A stretch of 64,000 nucleotides of DNA, from the NCBI GenBank assembly GCA_903813345.2, contig CAIIXF020000005.1:32927375-32991374 (forward strand), written 5' to 3'. Position 1 is the stretch's first letter; each line of letters starts with the position of its first letter. The DNA comes from Owenia fusiformis. Its lineage: Eukaryota; Annelida; Polychaeta; Sabellida; Oweniidae. A model generated the notes under the pieces. It was not told where the DNA came from, did no database searches, and saw only the letters and a program-made list of their open reading frames with translations. This document shows, piece by piece, positions 22,603 to 47,194 of the stretch. Made by a program: the position numbers and the translations under genes.

Positions 22603-23055
22603 CTTTATCAATGCATGAATTTTTATGAAACTTTCACCACACAATGTTTATCCATATTTCCTTGATTTGTACTAATTTGATCAATTTACCATAAAAGGAA
22701 ATGTACTTTCGGTTGCCATGGTAACCAGGAATTGAGTACCCGTGGAGCACCCTTGAAACACAACCAAATAATTTGTATGAGTAAGTTTAAAACAGTTGAT
22801 TTTTCAAATTATTCTGTATATCTGTTGTGCTTAACTGTTTCCATGGTAACAAAAATATGATGTAATGATGCACAATGGAGTATGACATCATATGCAGTAC
22901 TCTATGATGTCATAATCTTTGTTACATCAAGACTCTCAGTAGCCATCTTTAACAAAAGTGGAGCAAAATTTTCATTTCTGTGGAGCAAAATGGTATCTGG
23001 TATCGTCAAAGAGCAGAGAGTATGCATAAAAATATGTGTAAAACAGCAAAAAACA

Positions 23056-23821
23056 TTGAAAGAAACCTGGGTCACATGCAAAATGACATATGGTGATGAC
23101 TGTTGTACCTATCCAACGATTAGGACATGGTACAAAAAATTTAAAAGTGGATTCTTTGACATTGATGATTCACCCCGAAACGGAAGGAAAACATCTGCAA
23201 CACTTCAAGCAAACATTAACCTTGTTGAATCTATTGTAGAAGAGGACAAACGTGTTACAATTAGAGAGATACAAGACAGGACCCAATTAAGTGGTGAAAG
23301 AATTCATTTTATCTTGAAACACAAGCTGAATTTGAGAAAAATATCTGCAAAGTGGATTCCTAGAATGTTAACAGAAGAACAGAAAAAGGCCCGAGTTGGC
23401 CAGATCTACTAAGAAAGTGATGGTGATGACATTCGCCGATATCAAAGGCATCGTCTTGACTCATGCTGTGCCACGGGCCTTGAAAGAAACCTGGGACACA
23501 TGCAAAATGACATATGGTGATGACTGTTGTACCTATCCAACGATTAGGACATGGTACAAAAAATTTAAAAGTGGATTCTTTGACATTGATGATTCACCCC
23601 GAAACGGAAGGAAAACATCTGCAATTCTTCAAGCAAACATTAACCTTGTTAAATCTATTGTAGAAGAGGACAAACGTGTTACAATTAGAGAGATACAAGA
23701 CAGGACCTAATTAAGTGGTGAAAGAATTCATTTTATCTTGAAACACAAGCTGAATTTGAGAAAAATATCTGCAAAGTGGATTCCTAGAATGTTAACAGAA
23801 GAACAGAAAAAGGCCCGAGTT
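23056..23821 (+). repeat. Internal duplication in the mariner transposase
   Basis: The blocks 23056-23397 and 23480-23821 (342 bp each, offset 424) differ at only a handful of sites. The spacer 23398-23475 is a copy of transposase sequence found downstream at about 23987-24064, and joins at a GAGT microhomology. Relative to the intact order, ~167 bp is missing between block 1 and the spacer. This fits duplication of a larger segment with an internal deletion, or template switching. Confidence 0.9.
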
Positions 23822-24100
23822 TGGATGGCAAAGAGATTTCTCAAAAGCTTCACCAAAGAAGGGGATGTCTTCTTGAATAGGTTCCTAACTATGGATGAAA
23901 GTCTTGTATCTATGTATGACCCTGAGACAAAACAAAGTAGCAAACAGTGGACTGTTATCAATAGCCCTCGTCCTAAGAAATTCAGAGTGGCCAGATCTAC
24001 TAAGAAAGTGATGGTGATGATATTCGCCGATATCAAAGGCATCGTCTTGACTCATGCTGTGCCACAAGGGAAGACAATTAATGCTAACTACTATGCCAGG

Positions 24101-24223
24101 GTACGTAATTACGTATGTCCTATTTCTTTTTTAAACCTAATGAAAATTCTTTTCGAATTGAGCATACTGTATAGCCTTGTACCAATGTATGGTATTAAAA
24201 TAGAAGCTCTGATATGATTGCAG
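24101..24223 (+). other. Candidate spliceosomal intron inside the mariner transposase
   Basis: A 123-bp insertion with boundary AGG|GTACGTAA and a 3' end of TGATTGCAG|GTT. Removing it joins the transposase in phase 0 between Arg and Val, giving the expected family sequence across the junction (YYAR then VLRRDL). It contains an in-frame stop and is AT-rich relative to its flanks. Mariner genes are normally intronless. Confidence 0.7.
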
Positions 24224-38875: not shown

Positions 38876-38881
38876 GTTACC
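38876..38881. repeat. 6-bp target-site duplication, left copy
   Basis: GTTACC directly before the AG terminus of the element. It matches 47189-47194 perfectly. Confidence 0.93.
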
Positions 38882-39092
38882 AGTAGATATAAAATGTCAG
38901 GTTCTGGCTCGCCACGGGCCGCCACGGGCCCGGGGCTTTCAAAATCTCTGAAGATGAGCAGGAGATATTGATGAGCAGGAGATAAATTAATTGAATGGGG
39001 ATTAGGAGATAAATTAATTGGATGGGGCTTTCATCTTAAATGGGTGAGAGATAAGATGCGCATGACATCATTGTTATCTTAAATGGGTGAGA
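38882..39092. repeat. Polinton-like left TIR
   Basis: Begins AGTAGATATAAAATGTCAGG. It is the reverse complement of 46982-47188 with a single 4-bp indel (AAAT present here at about 39038). It contains short direct repeats: GATGAGCAGGAGATA twice and AGGAGATAAATTAATTG twice, plus a GC-rich CCACGGGCCGCCACGGGCCC patch. Confidence 0.95.
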
Positions 39093-39140
39093 GATAAGAT
39101 GCGCATGACATCATTGTTATCTAAATGGGTGAGGACTGAA
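39033..39140. repeat. 43-bp tandem repeat at the inner edge of the left TIR
   Basis: The unit beginning ATCTTAAATGGGTGAGAGAT and ending in CATTGTT occurs at 39033-39075 and 39076-39118, followed by a diverged partial third copy from 39119. The right TIR carries one unit only, so expansion took place at the left end. Confidence 0.85.
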
Positions 39141-39582
39141 TTTTAAAACGGAAGCATAACAAATCAATAACACAACATTTTTGTTTGATATATACATTAT
39201 ATCCAATCTTAAATTTATTTTACAATTTTCTTTACAATTGATGTAATATTAACATTTTTAAGGTAGAAATGATAGATTCTACTACAAAATCCATGTTATT
39301 AGACACACTGAAAGTGTTTACAATTTCGTTCGGTAATGAATTATCTGCTTTCAAGATGCGCATGACATCATTGTTATCTAAATGGGTGAGGACTGAATTT
39401 TAAAACGGAAGCATAACAAATCAATAACAACATTTTTGTTTGATATATACATTATATCCAATCTTAAATTTATTTTACAATTTTCTTTACAATTGATGTA
39501 ATATTAACATTTTTAAGGTAGAAATGATAGATTCTACTACAAAATCCATGTTATTAGACACACTGAAAGTGTTTACAATTTC
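39096..39582. repeat. 230-bp direct duplication with templated 26-bp filler
   Basis: 39096-39327 and 39353-39582 are identical except for a 2-base indel. The right copy is the authentic 3' end of the protease gene plus its downstream region. The left copy is a fragment holding the last ~31 codons and the poly(A) signal region. The filler 39329-39354 is a perfect 26-bp copy of 41037-41062 inside the major-capsid-like gene, in the same orientation, and overlaps the second copy by AA. Confidence 0.93.
39469..39474 (-). promoter_or_regulatory. Polyadenylation signal after the protease gene
   Basis: AATAAA on the minus strand, 12 nt beyond the protease stop. It is the only gene-end signal at the end of the five-gene block and a likely shared 3' end for the late-type transcripts. 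The duplicated copy nearer the TIR carries the same hexamer. Confidence 0.5.
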
Positions 39583-39933
39583 ATCTAAACTATACCCTAA
39601 AGTTCTCAATAATATATACATGATACAATATTGTCCACAATTTGAACTGTTCAAACCTTGAACACGAATGGGATTTACAAACATTGCATCTCCATATTCT
39701 TTTAATCCATAAAACGTTTCTGTATGACCTAAGGAGTCAAAAAATTCAATTTGTGAATCTCTATAATAACATACCCAATGTTGCCCCATTTCATAGTGAG
39801 GTCTAGTATTTGCTATAAAACATTTTTTATCCATGATAATAGATGGTAATTGATCACTTGCAAATACTCCTAGAAATCTATGCTTAGTATCTGGATGATT
39901 TGATAAAATAAAACTTATATCTTGTGAATTCAT
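39487..39933 (-). CDS. Adenain/Ulp1-type cysteine protease (capsid maturation protease)
   Basis: 148 residues when started at the ATG at 39933, which follows the capsid gene's stop after one base. An in-frame ATG 13 codons upstream (39972) would overlap that gene and is less likely. The catalytic set of the C5/C48 protease clan is visible: His52 in GQHWVCYY, Asp66 in EFFDSLG, Gln92 as the oxyanion-hole residue and Cys99 in SSNCGQYC. The size is close to other Polinton and adenoviral proteases. The family cleaves capsid precursor proteins during virion maturation, which fits its place directly after the capsid gene. The final 31 codons are duplicated downstream (39232-39327) as a non-functional fragment. 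The gene itself is intact. Confidence 0.9.
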   Translation of the reverse strand: MNSQDISFILSNHPDTKHRFLGVFASDQLPSIIMDKKCFIANTRPHYEMGQHWVCYYRDSQIEFFDSLGHTETFYGLKEYGDAMFVNPIRVQGLNSSNCGQYCIMYILLRTLGYSLDEIVNTFSVSNNMDFVVESIISTLKMLILHQL

Positions 39934-39934
39934 A

Positions 39935-41281
39935 TTAGTACTGAATAATATTGCGGGATGCGTCAACCTCAAATTTTCCCGGAAATGTTGCCATTAAAAT
40001 AATGTTTAATGATTCAGGTGTTGCCTCAGAAAAATGAATGTCAAGTTTTACATTTCCCTTTTTAAACAATGGAAGAATTTCACCATCTGAATATGTGTCT
40101 TTATAGCCTATATCAAACTTAAAGATACAAAAACCAGATTTAAAATCATCTATGCTTATATTTAACCCATCATTGTGTTCAAGATCTGAAAACAATTGTG
40201 TAAACTCATGAACATATTTGTCTTGTGAATCATTTGAGCCAAACTTAGGTTGAAATGCTCTAAATGGAGTAGGGACATTATCTACTGAAATTTCAACATA
40301 TGAAGTGTTTGCATGAATGAAATTGTAAGGATTAAGTTTATAGTTTCCTTGATATGCTGCATTTTTCACAATGACACAATACAATCGTGTAGGTACACGT
40401 CCTTGAAATAAATCATCTTGATTAAAAGAATATATATTACTAGGTAATGAGAGTACTTTCATTTCATTTCTATCATAAGTATATACAGCATTTCTCTCCT
40501 GTAATTCAGTATTATATGCTTGTAAAATACCATTTGAAACTGTAATCATTGGAACTTCTAAATGTACATCTAAAAGTTTGACTTTATATTGTTCATTTGA
40601 ATCAGTCATAAGTCTAAAACTGTTTTTTGTATGATTTAGTTTTATCTTCACTTCAACACCATTAATGAGGTATTTGTTGATGCTGAAGATATCTTCATGA
40701 AATTTACATTCCATATCAACTACTTTTCCACCTTGAGTTTTCACAAATCTTTGTGTTAGTCCCATGTTGTTAGAGCCTTGTCCCAGAGGTTTTGTTGCAT
40801 CCATTCCATTAGGTGGATATATCCCACTGTCCATATAAAACAGACATGCCGTACCTTCAGATTCTAATTTTCCTTTACTAGATGTTAACAATGTTTTCAA
40901 CATACTTTTATAAGGATAGTTTAAGACAGATGATGCCATGTTATTTTGTTGTAATGATATCTCAACCTCACTCCATAAAGAATGAATCCAATTATTTATT
41001 GGTCCATATGAATCATAATCTGTCAAATCCACATATTTCGGTAATGAATTATCTGCTTTCAATACCTGCGCTTTGACAGATAGCTTTACATTTTGAAGAT
41101 CTATAAACTGTGAAGTGTTGTTTGGTAAGATGAACTCTATTGGAGACTCACTGTCTATTGGATTGATAGGTCTGTACTCAACATAGTTCCTTCTAACAAC
41201 ACTACTTTCTGTTGGAGGTGTGTTAAATAACTGTAATTTCCCATTCATTACATCAGCACTGTTCATGAGTTTATATGCCAT
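39935..41281 (-). CDS. Putative major capsid protein (double jelly-roll type)
   Basis: 448 residues, intact. The amino-terminal part has the pattern seen in Polinton-type and related capsid proteins: an early Tyr/Pro region (YVEYRPINP), then a motif around IEFILPNN-x-SQFIDLQNV leading into alternating beta strands. The whole protein is rich in Asn, Tyr and beta-branched residues, consistent with stacked jelly-roll domains. There are no signal peptide or membrane segments. From memory it resembles invertebrate proteins catalogued as F54H12.2-like. It is shorter than the ~600-residue capsids of many Polintons. It starts 21 nt after the basic-protein gene, and its stop is separated from the protease start by one base. 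Fold assignment is by style and gene context, not structure prediction. Confidence 0.75.
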   Translation of the reverse strand: MAYKLMNSADVMNGKLQLFNTPPTESSVVRRNYVEYRPINPIDSESPIEFILPNNTSQFIDLQNVKLSVKAQVLKADNSLPKYVDLTDYDSYGPINNWIHSLWSEVEISLQQNNMASSVLNYPYKSMLKTLLTSSKGKLESEGTACLFYMDSGIYPPNGMDATKPLGQGSNNMGLTQRFVKTQGGKVVDMECKFHEDIFSINKYLINGVEVKIKLNHTKNSFRLMTDSNEQYKVKLLDVHLEVPMITVSNGILQAYNTELQERNAVYTYDRNEMKVLSLPSNIYSFNQDDLFQGRVPTRLYCVIVKNAAYQGNYKLNPYNFIHANTSYVEISVDNVPTPFRAFQPKFGSNDSQDKYVHEFTQLFSDLEHNDGLNISIDDFKSGFCIFKFDIGYKDTYSDGEILPLFKKGNVKLDIHFSEATPESLNIILMATFPGKFEVDASRNIIQY

Positions 41282-41302
41282 TTTTAATTATTTGAGTTGA
41301 AT

Positions 41303-41668
41303 TTACTTTTTTCTTTTCTGTGATGTCTTTGTTGACCTACGTTTGTATTCCTGTGGAGATTTCTTATTGACTGAAGACTTACTATTGCGTTTGCTTTTAT
41401 ATACACGTTTTTTCTTTCTAATTGTATCACGTGACTCGTTTGACTCGTGTGACTCGTGTGACTCGTTTGAGTGCTGTCTTTTAAGTGTAGCTTTTGCTCT
41501 CTCAACGACAGCTTGCATTGGAGATATTATTTGTTTCGGTTCATCTTTAATATCATCTTCACTTATCCAACCTCTTCCTGTTTGAGATACTTTCAATCTA
41601 TTCTGTCTACCAGCTCTAATAAGTTTCAACCAGTGTTCTGGTCTGTCTACATATGGTACTAATTTCAT
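41303..41668 (-). CDS. Small basic protein, putative core/DNA-condensing protein
   Basis: 121 residues if started at the ATG that overlaps the preceding gene's TGA in an ATGA arrangement (41668-41665). A start nine codons earlier (41695) is possible but overlaps more. The first ~45 residues (MKLVPYVDRPEHWLKLIRAG ...) look folded. The rest is Lys/Arg/Ser-rich with clusters such as RKKKR and KRRSTKTSQKRKK, plus a short Asn/His-Glu-Ser repeat. The charge and position beside the capsid genes suggest a virion core protein comparable in role to adenoviral basic core proteins, but there is no clear sequence match, so this is inference. Confidence 0.6.
   Translation of the reverse strand: MKLVPYVDRPEHWLKLIRAGRQNRLKVSQTGRGWISEDDIKDEPKQIISPMQAVVERAKATLKRQHSNESHESHESNESRDTIRKKKRVYKSKRNSKSSVNKKSPQEYKRRSTKTSQKRKK
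41425..41470. repeat. 9-bp tandem repeat TGACTCGTK inside the basic-protein gene
   Basis: Four consecutive units with K = T or G. On the minus strand they encode (Asn/His)-Glu-Ser triplets. The 9-bp period keeps the frame when unit number changes. Confidence 0.85.
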
Positions 41669-42081
41669 GATACTTGTTTCAAATGAAGTGTACACGTCAA
41701 AGGTTTGTCTTTAAATGACACAAGTGTGTTACCATTTCCTCTTATATAGACATGTATGCGATCAAACTCCCAATTCCCGACATCCTTGTATAATACTTGA
41801 TTAAAACTCAACCAAGAATAATCCTTTGGAATACGCCTTAAGATTGGTTGTACATTTCCATCAACAACACTTTCTATGCATAAATCACAAAACACATCTA
41901 AATACAATAATGCATCATTTGAATCCAATGGTGGTAACTGTATGTCAACAAGTCCTATTTTCCATTTTCCTTTAAGATAAAAGTATCTTGGTAACTTTAC
42001 AGTAAACTCTGATGCTGTATTATTGGGATAAATATTGGTTGAATCAGTGCTACTTAAATAAAAATAGATGTCTTTATCCAT
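41665..42081 (-). CDS. Minor-capsid (penton-like) protein, short form
   Basis: 138 residues, intact. The amino-terminal region has the motif order (Y)LSSTDS - YPNNTASEFTVKLP - LKGKWKIGLVDIQLP, which I recall from proteins encoded beside capsid genes in metazoan Polinton-like elements, where the consensus reads roughly FPxN...F...LP...L.G.WEVGL.EI.YP. Those proteins are usually longer, so this copy looks like a compact version holding about one jelly-roll. It starts 3 nt after the membrane-protein stop and ends in a TGA overlapping the next ATG. A role at capsid vertices is an inference from the family and gene order. Confidence 0.6.
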   Translation of the reverse strand: MDKDIYFYLSSTDSTNIYPNNTASEFTVKLPRYFYLKGKWKIGLVDIQLPPLDSNDALLYLDVFCDLCIESVVDGNVQPILRRIPKDYSWLSFNQVLYKDVGNWEFDRIHVYIRGNGNTLVSFKDKPLTCTLHLKQVS

Positions 42082-42084
42082 TGT

Positions 42085-42384
42085 TTAAACTGATGTACTA
42101 AAGTCTGTGTCACTATTTGATTTTTGTATTATCTCATATAACTTTGCAAACTTTGTTATATTATAGTCATGCTTTTGTTTTTTCAGATAATAAAACATCA
42201 ATATCATAAATGAAACACTTGTAGATCCAATTGCTAAATTACTAATTGATATTTCTTCAATTGCTAATATATTTGAAGGTGTTGAAGCACTTATTCGTGC
42301 TAATGATGTTGCATTTTCTTCTGCCAAGAGCACTTTAAAAATATGTACTAATATACAGTAGAACCTCACACTTTGATACTTCAT
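42085..42384 (-). CDS. Small membrane protein of the Polinton-like element
   Basis: 99 residues with a hydrophobic amino terminus (about residues 6-20, possibly a signal sequence) followed by a potential N-glycosylation site (NAT), a Ser/Ile-rich spacer, and a transmembrane segment at about residues 49-67 followed by a basic stop-transfer patch (KKQKHDY). The carboxy terminus ends TSV, which fits a class I PDZ ligand, though such a short match can be chance. No family is recognised. It is the first gene of the tightly packed five-gene block and has a TATA-like box ~33 nt upstream. Possible roles in envelope or membrane passage are speculative. Confidence 0.6.
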   Translation of the reverse strand: MKYQSVRFYCILVHIFKVLLAEENATSLARISASTPSNILAIEEISISNLAIGSTSVSFMILMFYYLKKQKHDYNITKFAKLYEIIQKSNSDTDFSTSV

Positions 42385-42417
42385 TGCTAAATAACAAAAA
42401 TGAGATGTACTTCAACA

Positions 42418-42425
42418 TTTATATA
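42418..42425 (-). promoter_or_regulatory. TATA-like box before the five-gene block
   Basis: TATATAAA on the minus strand, 33 nt before the ATG at 42384 and inside the ~100-nt gap after the integrase stop. The spacing would give a very short leader. It is the only sizeable gap between integrase and protease genes, so it is a natural promoter position. Confidence 0.45.
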
Positions 42426-42483
42426 AATATCAACATAACATAAAATAATGTTTTTCTATTTATTTTAAGTATAATATACAATA

Positions 42484-43581
42484 TTAAAAGGTTTTGATAT
42501 CCGTAGCTTTAACCCAAGAATCAAATTTCTTAGGCCAATATTTCCAATGTACCAAGTATTCTTTTTGACCTTGTTTTGTGCGTTGTTTTAAAACTTTTTC
42601 TATTTTATATAGATTGTCTTCATCAATATGCACACGTTGAAGCTCAGGTTGATAAAATGTTCCTTTAATCTCTTCACCTTCAAAATCTTTCAAGCGATAT
42701 AGAGGTAGACCTTGTCTGATGAATCGAGCAGCTATTTTGAAAATCTCTCCAGTCCAATGTTGATCATATTCTCTGGTAAAAACATGCCTTGCTTGTGTAA
42801 TTCTAACCTGAGCTCCAATAGGGAATTTGAAAATTTGCTTGGATTTGGTTTGACTTTTTATTATTGATTTAGGATAATACATACGCCACCAAATATTAAG
42901 CTCATCATCTTTAGAGACATCTTGGGGTGCTTTTTTAATACTTCTATGATGTGTAGCATTATAGCTTTTGACAAAGTCCTGTAAATTATCAATATATCTA
43001 AGATTTTGTTTATATGTGATGTATCTCATTATTTTCGTCTTCAATGTCTTAATAAAACGTTCAGAGTAATTTGCCTTGGAAGTATTACGCGTAACAAAAT
43101 GACGCACTCCCCATCTGCGTAACAATGTCTGTACACGTTTTGCACGGAATTCTTGACCAGCATCACTACGTATTACATCTGGTACTCTCCCTTCTTTAAA
43201 GATATCATCAAATGCATCTGCTACAGCTTGTCCAGTTTTATTCTTAAGTGGTCTGACAAATGCAAAACGGGACATGATATCAATGACAACTAAAATAAAA
43301 CGTATCCCATCATTCTCAGATGACATATTAGAGACATCCATTAAATCAGCATCCCATTGTTGATCAATGTAAGACACGTACACTTTGTTACGCCGAAACC
43401 GTCTTCTATATGGTCTTTGTAGACTATAAGCTTCCTGACTATCCAACCATTTTTTGACTTGGTAGTATGATACATCAAATCCAACTTTTTGTAAAGTTCT
43501 ATGTAATTTTTTAGGTCCACTAAAACTTGCTGGTTTAGAAGTATCATAATAATTCTTTTCTACATATTCTTTCCAAGACAT
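42484..43581 (-). CDS. Polinton-type integrase (DDE, rve) with chromodomain
   Basis: 365 residues, intact. The amino-terminal ~60 residues form a helix-rich region (LHRTLQKVGFDVSYYQVKKW) typical of Polinton integrases. The catalytic core shows Asp80 (WDADLMDVS), Asp140 (VIRSDAGQEF) and Glu174 (NYSERFIKTLK), with 33 residues between the last two, as in retroviral-type integrases. An SH3-like DNA-binding segment (GAQVRITQ ... GEIFKI) follows. A chromodomain closes the protein (residues ~324-364, YKIEKVLKQ ... YLVHWKYWPKKFDSWV), with the aromatic residues expected for a methyl-lysine cage. The enzyme would join the TIRs to target DNA, making the 6-bp duplication seen here. The chromodomain may bias insertion to marked chromatin. 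Confidence 0.95.
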   Translation of the reverse strand: MSWKEYVEKNYYDTSKPASFSGPKKLHRTLQKVGFDVSYYQVKKWLDSQEAYSLQRPYRRRFRRNKVYVSYIDQQWDADLMDVSNMSSENDGIRFILVVIDIMSRFAFVRPLKNKTGQAVADAFDDIFKEGRVPDVIRSDAGQEFRAKRVQTLLRRWGVRHFVTRNTSKANYSERFIKTLKTKIMRYITYKQNLRYIDNLQDFVKSYNATHHRSIKKAPQDVSKDDELNIWWRMYYPKSIIKSQTKSKQIFKFPIGAQVRITQARHVFTREYDQHWTGEIFKIAARFIRQGLPLYRLKDFEGEEIKGTFYQPELQRVHIDEDNLYKIEKVLKQRTKQGQKEYLVHWKYWPKKFDSWVKATDIKTF

Positions 43582-43633
43582 CTTTCCTCATAGACGTATA
43601 TTTTAATAATGTCCCAGGTATTGAAATTATACA

Positions 43634-43643
43634 TATATATATA
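43634..43643 (-). promoter_or_regulatory. TATATATA run before the integrase gene
   Basis: An alternating TA run directly after the ATPase stop (43644) and ~53 nt before the integrase ATG. A possible integrase promoter element, but simple AT repeats are common in this genome. Confidence 0.3.
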
Positions 43644-45248
43644 TCAACTGCTACTTTCAGAATTGCTTTCATCTTGATTATAATATTGTTCTTCATCAGT
43701 AAATTCTTCATTAGCATTGCTTTCATCATAATTATCAGACTTTTCTTCATCAGTAGATTCTTCATCTGAATTGTCTTCTTCATCTGTATCTATAAATAGC
43801 TCACTAAACTTATGTTCATTTTTCACAAGTATCTTTCTGATTGCAAGATCTCTAGAGACACCTCTCATTAACATATCATTTACTTCATCTACAATATTTC
43901 TGTGTAATACATTGTCTGCTAAACCAAATACTTGTTTTAAGACCTTCTTATAGTGCTTCATGAATATTTCCTTATCCATTTGTACAAGTTTCTTCTCAGC
44001 CTTTTCTATAGCCTCCTTTTCATTGTTTCCCCTATCTATATACTCCTTTACTTTATGATCATAATCCTTTTCATTATCATTTCTAGCCAGGTTCTTTAAA
44101 TATACAAATGTTTCATTTAATCTGAGATCATCATCTTCTTCTTCTTTATTTGTTTGTGCATTGGTTTCAATCTTCATTTTCTTGGTCGGATGACCTTGAC
44201 ACCAATTTTTAACATGATGTTGTAAATCATGAATACTCTCAAAGACTAAACCACAGTCATCACATGAGACCATATCGTCACATCCACAATGAGAGGAATA
44301 AGGTGACGTTCCAGTTTTTATATCATACATACTTGTACCCTCTGCATTTATTTGAGGTGTTTCTGGTACATGATTAGGTATATTTCCATTACTTTCAAGT
44401 TGTTGTGATTGTATTCCTCTGTTCAGACTTTGTTTTGATAATGGTTTTTGAAGCATTATATTTGAAGTTGTGGAAGGATTATACAATCTCATACTTTCAG
44501 GAGTTTCTTGCTTGAGGTCTACTAACAAGTAGCTGAAAGGTTGATGTGTAGCCTTTTCATATGCATCCAATAACTTGTGAGACTTCCCAGGATACATTTG
44601 ATGAGCCAAAACAGATATTTGTTGCCTATCTCTTGGGTTCTTATACAACACAATGTAGTGGGAATTTAAACTGAGAGTCCGACTTTCTCTACCACATGGG
44701 AACAAATTCTGCATCAAGCAAATGACACTTAGATTTCTATGATGTGATCCACGTGTATACAAATCAGCAATCCTTGTATCTTTTGATATATCACTCATTA
44801 AATCATCAAAGATCATCAAGTTCCTCTGATTCACATCTAAAAAATCTGGGTTACTCAATTCGTCTGGTATTCCCATCATAAACTCAATATTTGAGTTGAT
44901 TGTCTTGATGTTGTCATAAAGAGGTTGCCATTGACTGTAACACCATATGATTTTTTGCGGTGTTGGAGATATTGTAGTATCAGCATGGTCAATCAGTTCC
45001 TTTATATATGTAGATTTTCCAGAACCTGTCGGTCCAACCACCATCATGGTAAATGGATGGTAGAGCACTTTTGATTTTGTTGATGTCATAGCTGGAATTG
45101 TTGAATAAATTCCCATGTCATGTTGTCTATTAGGTGAGTTTATGATGCTTTTCTGCAATGCATGGTCTATTCTTTTATGACGATACATACTGGTTGCATG
45201 ACTAAATGTCTTTCCACACTCACAGGAATAAGAAGAAATTTTAGACAT
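43644..45248 (-). CDS. Packaging ATPase (FtsK/HerA, A32-like) with two zinc fingers
   Basis: 534 residues from the Met at 45248, chosen because a zinc finger follows at once. The frame is open to an ATG at 45362 that is formed by a minisatellite unit. In order: C2H2-type finger (residues 8-28, CECGKTF...H...H), Walker A GPTGSGKST (72-80), Walker B LMIFDD (144-149), the family-typical RGSHHRN and MQNLF motifs (166-183), a second finger of C2HC type (329-350), a charged Lys/Glu helix region, and an acidic tail of Asp/Glu/Ser/Asn repeats (EEDNSDEESTDEEKS). The ATPase core matches genome-packaging enzymes of Polintons and related DNA viruses. The long carboxy extension is unusual. It is the first gene after the GTGAAC array. 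Confidence 0.92.
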   Translation of the reverse strand: MSKISSYSCECGKTFSHATSMYRHKRIDHALQKSIINSPNRQHDMGIYSTIPAMTSTKSKVLYHPFTMMVVGPTGSGKSTYIKELIDHADTTISPTPQKIIWCYSQWQPLYDNIKTINSNIEFMMGIPDELSNPDFLDVNQRNLMIFDDLMSDISKDTRIADLYTRGSHHRNLSVICLMQNLFPCGRESRTLSLNSHYIVLYKNPRDRQQISVLAHQMYPGKSHKLLDAYEKATHQPFSYLLVDLKQETPESMRLYNPSTTSNIMLQKPLSKQSLNRGIQSQQLESNGNIPNHVPETPQINAEGTSMYDIKTGTSPYSSHCGCDDMVSCDDCGLVFESIHDLQHHVKNWCQGHPTKKMKIETNAQTNKEEEDDDLRLNETFVYLKNLARNDNEKDYDHKVKEYIDRGNNEKEAIEKAEKKLVQMDKEIFMKHYKKVLKQVFGLADNVLHRNIVDEVNDMLMRGVSRDLAIRKILVKNEHKFSELFIDTDEEDNSDEESTDEEKSDNYDESNANEEFTDEEQYYNQDESNSESSS

Positions 45249-45354
45249 GTTGACTCGTCTAATGATAACAGTTAAATGATAGTATGTTTGAGGTATCCTT
45301 GTTAAATAATCAAACCATGATTTAAACTTAGATAAATGTTGATGTAATACATAA

Positions 45355-46142
45355 GTGAACATTTGTGAACATCAGTGAACATTTGTGAACAATACTAGTG
45401 AACATCAGTGAACATTTGTGAACATCAGTGAACCTTTGTGAACATTACTAGTGAACATTTGTGAACATTTATGAACAATACTAGTGAACATTTGTGAACA
45501 ATACTAGTGAACATTTGTGAACTATAATAGTGAACATCAGTGAGCATTTGTGAACATCAGTGAACATTTGTGAACAATACTAGTGAACATTTGTGAACAT
45601 TACTAGTGAACATTTGTGAACATTACTAGTGAACATTTGTGAACATTTATGAACAATACTAGTGAACATTTGTGAACAATACTAGTGAACATTTGTGAAC
45701 ATCAGTGAACATTTGTGAACATTACTAGTGAACATTTGTGAACATTTATGAACAATACTAGTGAACATTTGTGAACAATACTAGTGAACATTTGTGAACA
45801 TCAGTGAACATTTGTGAACAATACTAGTGAACATTTGTGAACATTTATGAACAATACTAGTGAACATTTGTGAACAATACTAGTGAACATTTGTGAACAT
45901 CAGTGAACATTTGTGAACAATACTAGTGAACATTTGTGAACAAAACTAGTGAACATTTGTGAACATCAGTGAACATTTGTGAACAATACTAGATAACATT
46001 TGTGAACATCAGTGGACATTTGTGAACAATACTAGTGAACATTTGTGAACAATACTAGTGAACATTTGTGAACATTTGTGAACAATACTAGTGAACATTT
46101 GTGAACATCAGTGAACATTTGTGAACAATACTTGTGAACATC
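45355..46142. repeat. GTGAAC minisatellite (iteron-like array) upstream of the ATPase gene
   Basis: About 790 bp made of GTGAACATTT and GTGAACAATACTA (also GTGAACATCA, GTGAACATTACTA and ATGAACA variants). The heptad GTGAACA recurs at 10- or 13-bp steps, roughly 70 times by spacing. Composite units are 23 bp (GTGAACATTTGTGAACAATA then CTA) and 20 bp, with frequent ACTAGT palindromes at joints. The array ends in decayed units near 46140. It lies between the right arm of the element and the first gene, and could serve as origin, enhancer or packaging signal. It has no spacer variety or palindromic repeats of a CRISPR kind. Confidence 0.95.
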
Positions 46143-46981
46143 AAAGAATATTTGTACATGATAATTAAAGTATTCGACCATGTCACAATGCTAAATTCTC
46201 TCAATTTCTACTAAATTATTTACCCTCAATTTCAATGAAATTATTTACATAAAATACAATTCATATATAACAACTAATCAAAGACATTGGAACATATATG
46301 ATCCTACTGCATTTAGATGTTGTGTTATTGAATATCATGTACAGAATATTTAGGACTTACCTTAAACAAGCATACAGATATGTCTAAATCACCAGTTGTT
46401 TACTACCATGTTCATAAATGGTCCACACACTTTTTGGAGATTTTTATATGGTAAAAATGATGTCAAATTCTATTTTAGGGCATGATGTCATATATTTTTT
46501 AAGAAACTTAGGTCATAAAATGATGATGTCATATACTCTAGATCATTCTAGAAAAAAGGATTAACACATTAAACAAAAGATGTTCTAGAATATGAAGGAT
46601 TAACATTGTGATGACACAGTTAAATGTCAACATTCAATTATTACATTAAAAGACCATTATTGTTGAAATCAAGTAGAGTAAGATCAAATGGTCAATTCAA
46701 TATAGAACTTAAATAAATAAACCTTTTCAACGGTCAATTCAATATAGGACTTAAATAAATAAACCTTTTCATCTGTACTCATATTTAATCCAAAATCCAG
46801 TTCTCTTTCCTTTTATACCAACAGTATTTGTTTGACCAGCTCAATAGGATTATTGATTCTTTTCAATGTTGGGTTAATATTGAAAGTAGAATTGTAAACA
46901 CTGTTAATGGATTATACCAAATTTAAAATAATATTAAAGGGATTTATTTTGTACTTTACTATTCAGTCCAAGAAATACATT
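46143..46981. other. Non-coding AT-rich segment of the Polinton-like element
   Basis: About 840 bp with no frame of note on either strand. It includes two adjacent copies of a 42-bp unit (46690-46731 and 46732-46771, GGTCAATTCAATATAG(A/G)AC...) and an ATGATGTCA-rich patch (46455-46535). This is the only place in the element that could hold a further gene, and it is too short for a polymerase. Confidence 0.7.
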
Positions 46982-47188
46982 TCTCACCCATTTAAGATAA
47001 CAATGATGTCATGCGCATCTTATCTCTCACCCAAGATGAAAGCCCCATCCAATTAATTTATCTCCTAATCCCCATTCAATTAATTTATCTCCTGCTCATC
47101 AATATCTCCTGCTCATCTTCAGAGATTTTGAAAGCCCCGGGCCCGTGGCGGCCCGTGGCGAGCCAGAACCTGACATTTTATATCTACT
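46982..47188. repeat. Polinton-like right TIR
   Basis: 207 bp ending ACATTTTATATCTACT. It matches the left TIR across its full length apart from the 4-bp indel. A short frame at 47011-47208 is TIR-derived. Confidence 0.95.
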
Positions 47189-47194
47189 GTTACC
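47189..47194. repeat. 6-bp target-site duplication, right copy
   Basis: GTTACC directly after the CT terminus of the element. Confidence 0.93.

Follow-up and report, generated by a model that had tools for sequence, protein, structure and literature searches.

A capsid-encoding Polinton-type element without PolB, and its putative polymerase donors, in the genome of Owenia fusiformis

The inspection of a 64,000-nt stretch of the Owenia fusiformis genome (contig CAIIXF020000005.1, here C5, positions 32,927,375 to 32,991,374; referred to below as the window) showed an element of the Polinton/Maverick type at positions 38882–47188 (8,307 bp). The element terminates in AG..CT and has long terminal inverted repeats (TIRs) together with a 6-bp target-site duplication (TSD), as in Polintons/Mavericks. 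A blastn comparison of the left and right TIRs (214 versus 210 nt) gave an identity of 97.7%. The outer arms (38878–39037 and 47033–47192, counting four flanking bases on either side) matched at 99% over 160 nt, and an inner continuation was found at 39041–39095 and 46979–47033. The minus strand contains seven open genes (Table 1). A preliminary description, made from the sequence alone, had taken this stretch for a complete Polinton/Maverick-like element with TIRs, a GTTACC duplication and intact genes, which was confirmed.

The integrase, which has the D-D-E residues, and the packaging ATPase, whose probable start is MSKISS (residue 39 or 40), both gave Pfam matches. The named relatives of the ATPase in databases (among the best 120 of 440) came from bivalves or from bacterial records, one of these a bivalve gill symbiont. 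The protease scored slightly under the Peptidase_C5 cut-off (19.8 bits versus 21.3; E 7e-4) and carries catalytic-looking GQHW...FFDS...NCGQYC motifs. The 448-aa protein had no Pfam match. An AlphaFold2 model of it built from 16 sequences (mean pLDDT 79) matched, in Foldseek, the major capsid proteins (MCPs) of Sputnik (4e-16) and mavirus (7e-15), as well as that of PBCV-1; by its predicted fold, the protein is a candidate double-jelly-roll MCP. No Pfam match was found for the 138-aa protein either, and a protein search returned only the genome's own copy; a homologue with 51% identity lies at the same position in another Polinton-like element, on contig C2.

Table 1. Coordinates of the features of the element, given as positions of the window
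Feature	Position	Strand	Remarks
Left TSD, GTTACC	38876–38881		Perfect match to right copy
Left TIR, 214 nt	38882–39095	+	Tip AGTAGATATA, variant alpha
255-bp tandem duplication	39172–39582		Second copy of protease 3′ end
Putative adenain-like cysteine protease, 161 aa	39487–39972	-	Peptidase_C5 and motifs
MCP, 448 aa	39935–41281	-	Double jelly-roll by predicted fold
Small basic protein, 130 aa	41303–41695	-	
138-aa protein	41665–42081	-	Candidate minor capsid (penton) protein, by position and conservation alone
Membrane-like protein, 99 aa	42085–42384	-	Judged by eye
rve integrase with C-terminal chromodomain, 365 aa	42484–43581	-	rve 8e-12, Chromo 2e-8 (Pfam)
A32-type packaging ATPase with C2H2 zinc finger, 572 aa	43644–45362	-	Pox_A32 2e-7, above cut-off
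GTGAACA tandem array	45354–46142		63 exact heptamers, about 1 expected
Non-coding end module	46122–46978		Shared with palindrome L017
Right TIR, 210 nt	46979–47188	-	Tip AGTAGATATA
Right TSD, GTTACC	47189–47194		Perfect match to left copy

No polymerase was found in the element by Pfam analysis of the seven genes, by a scan of the frames of 46143–46981, or by tblastn with the PolB encoded elsewhere in the same genome (E ≤ 1), which detected only a short similarity to the zinc finger of the ATPase; the preliminary description, which had seen no polymerase frame, was correct in this. It had also considered that a diverged replication gene might be hidden in 46143–46981. This was ruled out, the longest stop-to-stop frame there being 52 codons; that the interval holds no primase, helicase or Rep gene is concluded from the lack of any longer frame. 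Among the seven open frames, Pfam revealed no non-PolB replication gene of the kind present in virophages and Polinton-like viruses (PLVs).

When the host assembly (498 Mb, 525 contigs) was searched with the TIRs and 40 of the 67 candidates were scored, 48 matches were obtained, which correspond to at least 21 elements. Since all 21 share the TIRs and are flanked by perfect 6-bp TSDs that differ in sequence from one element to another, the window element is not a chance structure. The tip exists in two variants; the left and right ends of an element agree in their variant in all 21 cases, and both variants were found within the capsid-bearing class and within a class of about 4 kb. Seven elements (7,964–8,537 bp), including that of the window, contain capsid genes and lack PolB. 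All seven genes are open, as in the window, in five of these; in L011 the tail of the basic protein is altered and the ATPase is 12 codons shorter, while in L013 the integrase is broken (it is intact in the other six). The copies are young, the mean synonymous divergence (pS) of the MCP being 0.0025 over 8 copies. The other full-length copies match the DNA flanking the 255-bp duplication of the window element as single pieces, as if they had one unit only. A one-off deletion affecting the window copy alone was ruled out, since the PolB-less gene set is common to seven copies. The notion that relatives with the same TIRs might be mostly longer and endowed with PolB was not borne out: seven of the eight copies with capsid genes are PolB-less and 8.0–8.5 kb long, and one contains PolB. 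When the genome's PolB was compared by tblastn (E ≤ 1) with the 20 elements other than this last copy, only the ATPase zinc-finger similarity and two chance-level fragments appeared.

Another seven elements, of 3,933–4,473 bp, contain only two genes, both open in all seven: one for a second ATPase (AT2; 516 aa, sharing 40% identity with the ATPase of the 8-kb class), the other for a basic protein (BA2; 124 aa, 57% identical to its 8-kb counterpart). The TIRs of the 4-kb and 8-kb classes are 89–96% identical despite the divergence of the genes, and this ATPase/basic protein lineage is old. The family also includes six near-perfect palindromes of 3.8–7.2 kb, with arms of 1.6–2.9 kb that are 97.5–100% identical; the basic protein gene is present twice, inverted, in four of them, and the other two have no such frame. 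The left and right 150-nt ends were identical in 11 of 16 elements tested, with a mean identity of 97.7% within elements and 93.4% between them. AGTAGA tips and 6-bp TSDs are kept by the examined members of every class, including those described below. Heptamers of the GTGAACA array, spaced by 10 or 13 bp, were found in all five of the other 8-kb copies tested, in the six palindromes and in the PolB-containing copy; the zinc fingers of the ATPase or of PolB could possibly bind to the array. The non-coding end module is also shared, over about 1.1 kb including the TIR, with the palindrome L017 (91%) and, via L028, over about 0.65 kb with the 4-kb elements.

The copy containing PolB (L009) lies on contig C3 (31497900–31512420; 14.5 kb, TSD GCTTTG), and its TIRs are closely similar to those of the window element (99.5%). 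It has the same seven genes as the window element, that for the 99-aa protein being frameshifted, plus an open PolB frame of 1,287 codons (1,275 from the first ATG) located between the left arm and the ATPase and encoding N-terminal C2H2 fingers. We take this frame to be a protein-primed PolB from its exonuclease and polymerase motifs, its length and its many relatives in the genome. It gave no DNA_pol_B match in Pfam at E ≤ 0.01, and solved structures (best 60 of 99) matched its zinc-finger regions alone. The C3 copy matches all four adintovirus components: PolB, adenain, integrase and capsid. Its ATPase, at first suspected of being disrupted by a stop, loses only 12 codons of the acidic tail, and the suspicion was abandoned. 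A nested transposon was rejected as the cause of its length; the extra DNA consists of PolB and small open reading frames, and no convincing inverted repeat was found around an insert (eight pairs of 25–33 nt, 70–81% identical, were detected). A minus-strand open frame of 384 codons (L009:3–1154) crosses the left end of this copy, which may lie at the edge of a host gene.

A search of the assembly for PolB gave at least 84 matches, 36 of 1,289 candidates having been scored. Three further places showed 94–95% identity to the C3 PolB; the rest were mostly 54–81% identical, with a few short matches at 38–39%. A second PolB-containing element was found at C369:3448–17960 (14,513 bp, TSD TCTAGA), in the parts read, it has an MCP, a protease, a PolB altered at both ends and an integrase that is divided between two frames; its tip is related to that of the window family, while the inner part of its TIR is different. 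Two other elements, C91:94833–102549 (7,717 bp, TSD AAAATA) and C11:3246778–3253607 (6,830 bp, TSD TGTATT), have inverted repeats tipped with AGTAGATA and contain PolB plus a C-terminal portion of the ATPase; over their whole length, neither matched any of the other six genes, so that both lack capsid and integrase. Their mutual alignment (93%) is uninterrupted from PolB through the remnant of the ATPase, and the ATPase similarity next to PolB starts at residue 291 in each of them, so that they most likely share one deletion. In C91 the end of the ATPase is also present, inverted, on the other arm; in C11 there is a stop within PolB. That the family is divided into complementary pieces could not be seen from the window alone.

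Selection was assessed by simple site counts. Between the two PolB-only elements, 15% of synonymous and 3.5% of non-synonymous PolB sites were changed (115 and 105 distinct changes, respectively, in the pair; N/S ratio 0.22, p = 5e-28). In the two-gene class the N/S ratio was 0.33 for AT2 (p = 4e-4) and 0.10 for BA2 (p = 5e-5). For the PolB-less copies, pooled after omitting the ATPase and basic protein of L011, the integrase of L013 and the gene for the 99-aa protein, 31 synonymous and 63 non-synonymous changes gave a ratio of 0.50 (p = 0.0016). Purifying selection is therefore strong in the PolB-only and two-gene classes and modest in the PolB-less class. The C3 copy is a mosaic relative to the 8-kb copies, with a pS of 0.000–0.011 in the MCP and protease genes, 0.052–0.066 in the integrase and 0.051–0.085 in the ATPase, which suggests that the PolB-containing and PolB-less classes have recombined.

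These observations suggest that the window element is probably a non-autonomous Polinton segment that would contribute capsid and integrase and obtain PolB in trans from relatives elsewhere in this genome. Its candidate helper was recognized by sequence, and we infer replication and packaging in trans. The segment could have arisen from a protein-primed Polinton of about 14.5 kb by loss of PolB and of genes of the left arm, the TIRs, integrase, packaging ATPase and capsid and protease genes being kept. If a relative containing PolB, alone or with other genes, were expressed, its PolB might begin protein-primed synthesis at the shared AGTAG tips. The displaced strands would replicate extrachromosomally, recombine across classes, and be packaged and/or reinserted by the integrase of the PolB-less segment itself; conversely, this segment would be the source of integrase and capsid for the PolB-only and two-gene elements. 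Palindromes would be the outcome of strand-switching on displaced single strands. The matched tips, the palindromes and the C3 mosaic are the traces that co-replication and template switching would be expected to leave. In vertebrate Mavericks, according to the available text of PMC8097293, repeated terminal triplets are thought to serve the jumping-back of protein-primed replication. The window element belongs, as a non-autonomous derivative, to an ordinary family of Polintons with PolB and does not represent a lineage that gave up PolB, and the ‘distinct life style’ proposed in the preliminary description was overstated.

Several points weigh against supply of PolB in trans. Its support comes from sequences. 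The PolB-only elements and C369 share with the window TIR only the tip and a weak inner similarity, which makes it putative that one PolB or one integrase would recognize them all. The GTGAACA array was missing from the 4-kb elements and from the parts tested of the PolB-only elements and C369, and five of the 16 elements have left and right ends only 84–97% alike over 150 nt. The relatives sampled resemble the end module, in their DNA upstream of PolB, at only ~75%, so that the direct parent of the window element may not be among them. The selection signal of the 8-kb class is weak per gene (p 0.02–0.6, with transitions unweighted); its open genes may in part be an effect of youth, and recombination with full-length elements could be what kept them intact.

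The same gene contents, being complementary and accompanied by 6-bp TSDs in every class, could instead reflect a multipartite endogenous virus or Polinton, in which PolB-only, capsid/integrase and ATPase/basic protein elements would be stable segments, each selected for complementing the others and co-replicated via the common terminal motif, with rare full-length versions alongside. The N/S ratios (0.22 for PolB, 0.33 and 0.10 for AT2 and BA2, and a modest 0.50 in the 8-kb class) and the age of the ATPase/basic protein lineage, with its identities of 40% and 57%, agree with such an arrangement. We consider it possible, if rather doubtful: the existence of full-length elements with PolB indicates that the family need not be split, the PolB-only copies detected number just two, PolB being interrupted by a stop in one of them, and the TIRs of these two differ from those of the capsid class beyond the tip. 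It is unlikely that the 8-kb element is a cut-and-paste transposon moved within chromosomes by its own integrase, with no replication by PolB and with capsid genes as passengers that have yet to decay. An intact integrase in six of the seven PolB-less copies and the youth of these copies would fit, but tips matched in 21 of 21 elements, near-perfect palindromes and a mosaic with a PolB-containing copy point to extrachromosomal replication and recombination, and the pooled N/S ratio speaks against free decay. Replication by a host polymerase alone, with the PolB relatives irrelevant, agrees with the failure to find a replication gene in the window element itself but seems very improbable, since close PolB-only relatives in the same genome hold PolB under strong constraint and the tips thought necessary for protein-primed initiation (PMC8097293, available text) are kept. 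Of the earlier proposal that the element retains packaging and integration and borrows replication, the part concerning a helper element thus stands at the sequence level (the C3 copy and the two PolB-only elements), while borrowing from the host is without support.

Other loci were noted. The Polinton-like element on C2 (18845860–18853738; L053/L054) has counterparts of the 138-aa protein, basic protein, MCP and protease in the same order (51, 47, 51 and 39% identity), followed after the protease by an integrase and a 220-aa A32 ATPase; its 300-aa and 220-aa proteins had no significant Pfam match. There was no PolB match in the ~12.5 kb read, in which the ends were not found, and the element is not claimed to be PolB-less. 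Thirteen places with equal or near-equal scores (e.g. C1:15586883, C2:1939710 and C3:13026829) contain integrase frames of 373 codons with 73% identity, with no capsid or PolB match nearby among the matches listed; they are perhaps another reduced, amplified class of element. Within the window, two frames at 22882–24217 look like pieces of a mariner-type transposase.

The window element resembles Polintons/Mavericks, adintoviruses included, in its 6-bp TSD, AG..CT ends, rve integrase with chromodomain, A32-type ATPase and double-jelly-roll MCP, and in its putative adenain-like protease. It differs in lacking PolB and in its size, 8.3 kb versus the 12.7–24.6 kb of intact vertebrate Mavericks (PMC8097293, available text). 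Unlike the adintovirus set of PolB, adenain, integrase and capsid, it has no PolB. Non-autonomous transposons and defective-interfering derivatives share TIRs with a full-length helper and have lost the autonomy gene, as is the case here. Unlike them, the window element keeps seven open genes, including those for capsid and integrase, and it would be a donor as well as a borrower, complementary PolB-only elements being present. PLVs and virophages are likewise small double-jelly-roll dsDNA elements, possibly relying on another element. Most PLVs are devoid of pPolB and of an rve integrase, and their replication proteins are of other kinds (PMC11071308, available text); here an rve integrase is present and no replication gene was found, and the role of helper would fall to a sister element of the same genome.

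It is easy to dismiss short Polintons with capsid genes as incomplete: Krupovic et al. (2014) removed Polinton-like elements under 10 kb as such, and noted Polintons without capsid genes (PMC4028283, in the part available), while many protist elements without a detectable polymerase appear in the available text of Bellas et al. (2023; PMC10120064). In the open-access literature searched, no report was found of PolB-less capsid Polintons with PolB-only partners, and within that literature a PolB-less class that has capsid genes and is complemented by partners of its own genome is new; the viral contigs scanned gave no confirmed relative of the window element. Short capsid elements with the same TIRs outnumber full-length ones seven to one here, and a candidate helper accompanies them in the genome, so that a single virus-like transposon seems to have its parts distributed over separate genomic pieces. 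In this they recall the bidnaviruses and the multi-segment, bidna-like Vesanto virus, in which some of several pieces carry PolB and the terminal repeats are related (PMC8363768, available text). Those are ssDNA viruses, whereas the pieces described here are chromosomal Polinton segments with an integrase and a double-jelly-roll capsid; they make testable both the sharing of PolB and capsid in trans among capsid-bearing transposons and a Polinton origin of multipartite DNA viruses.

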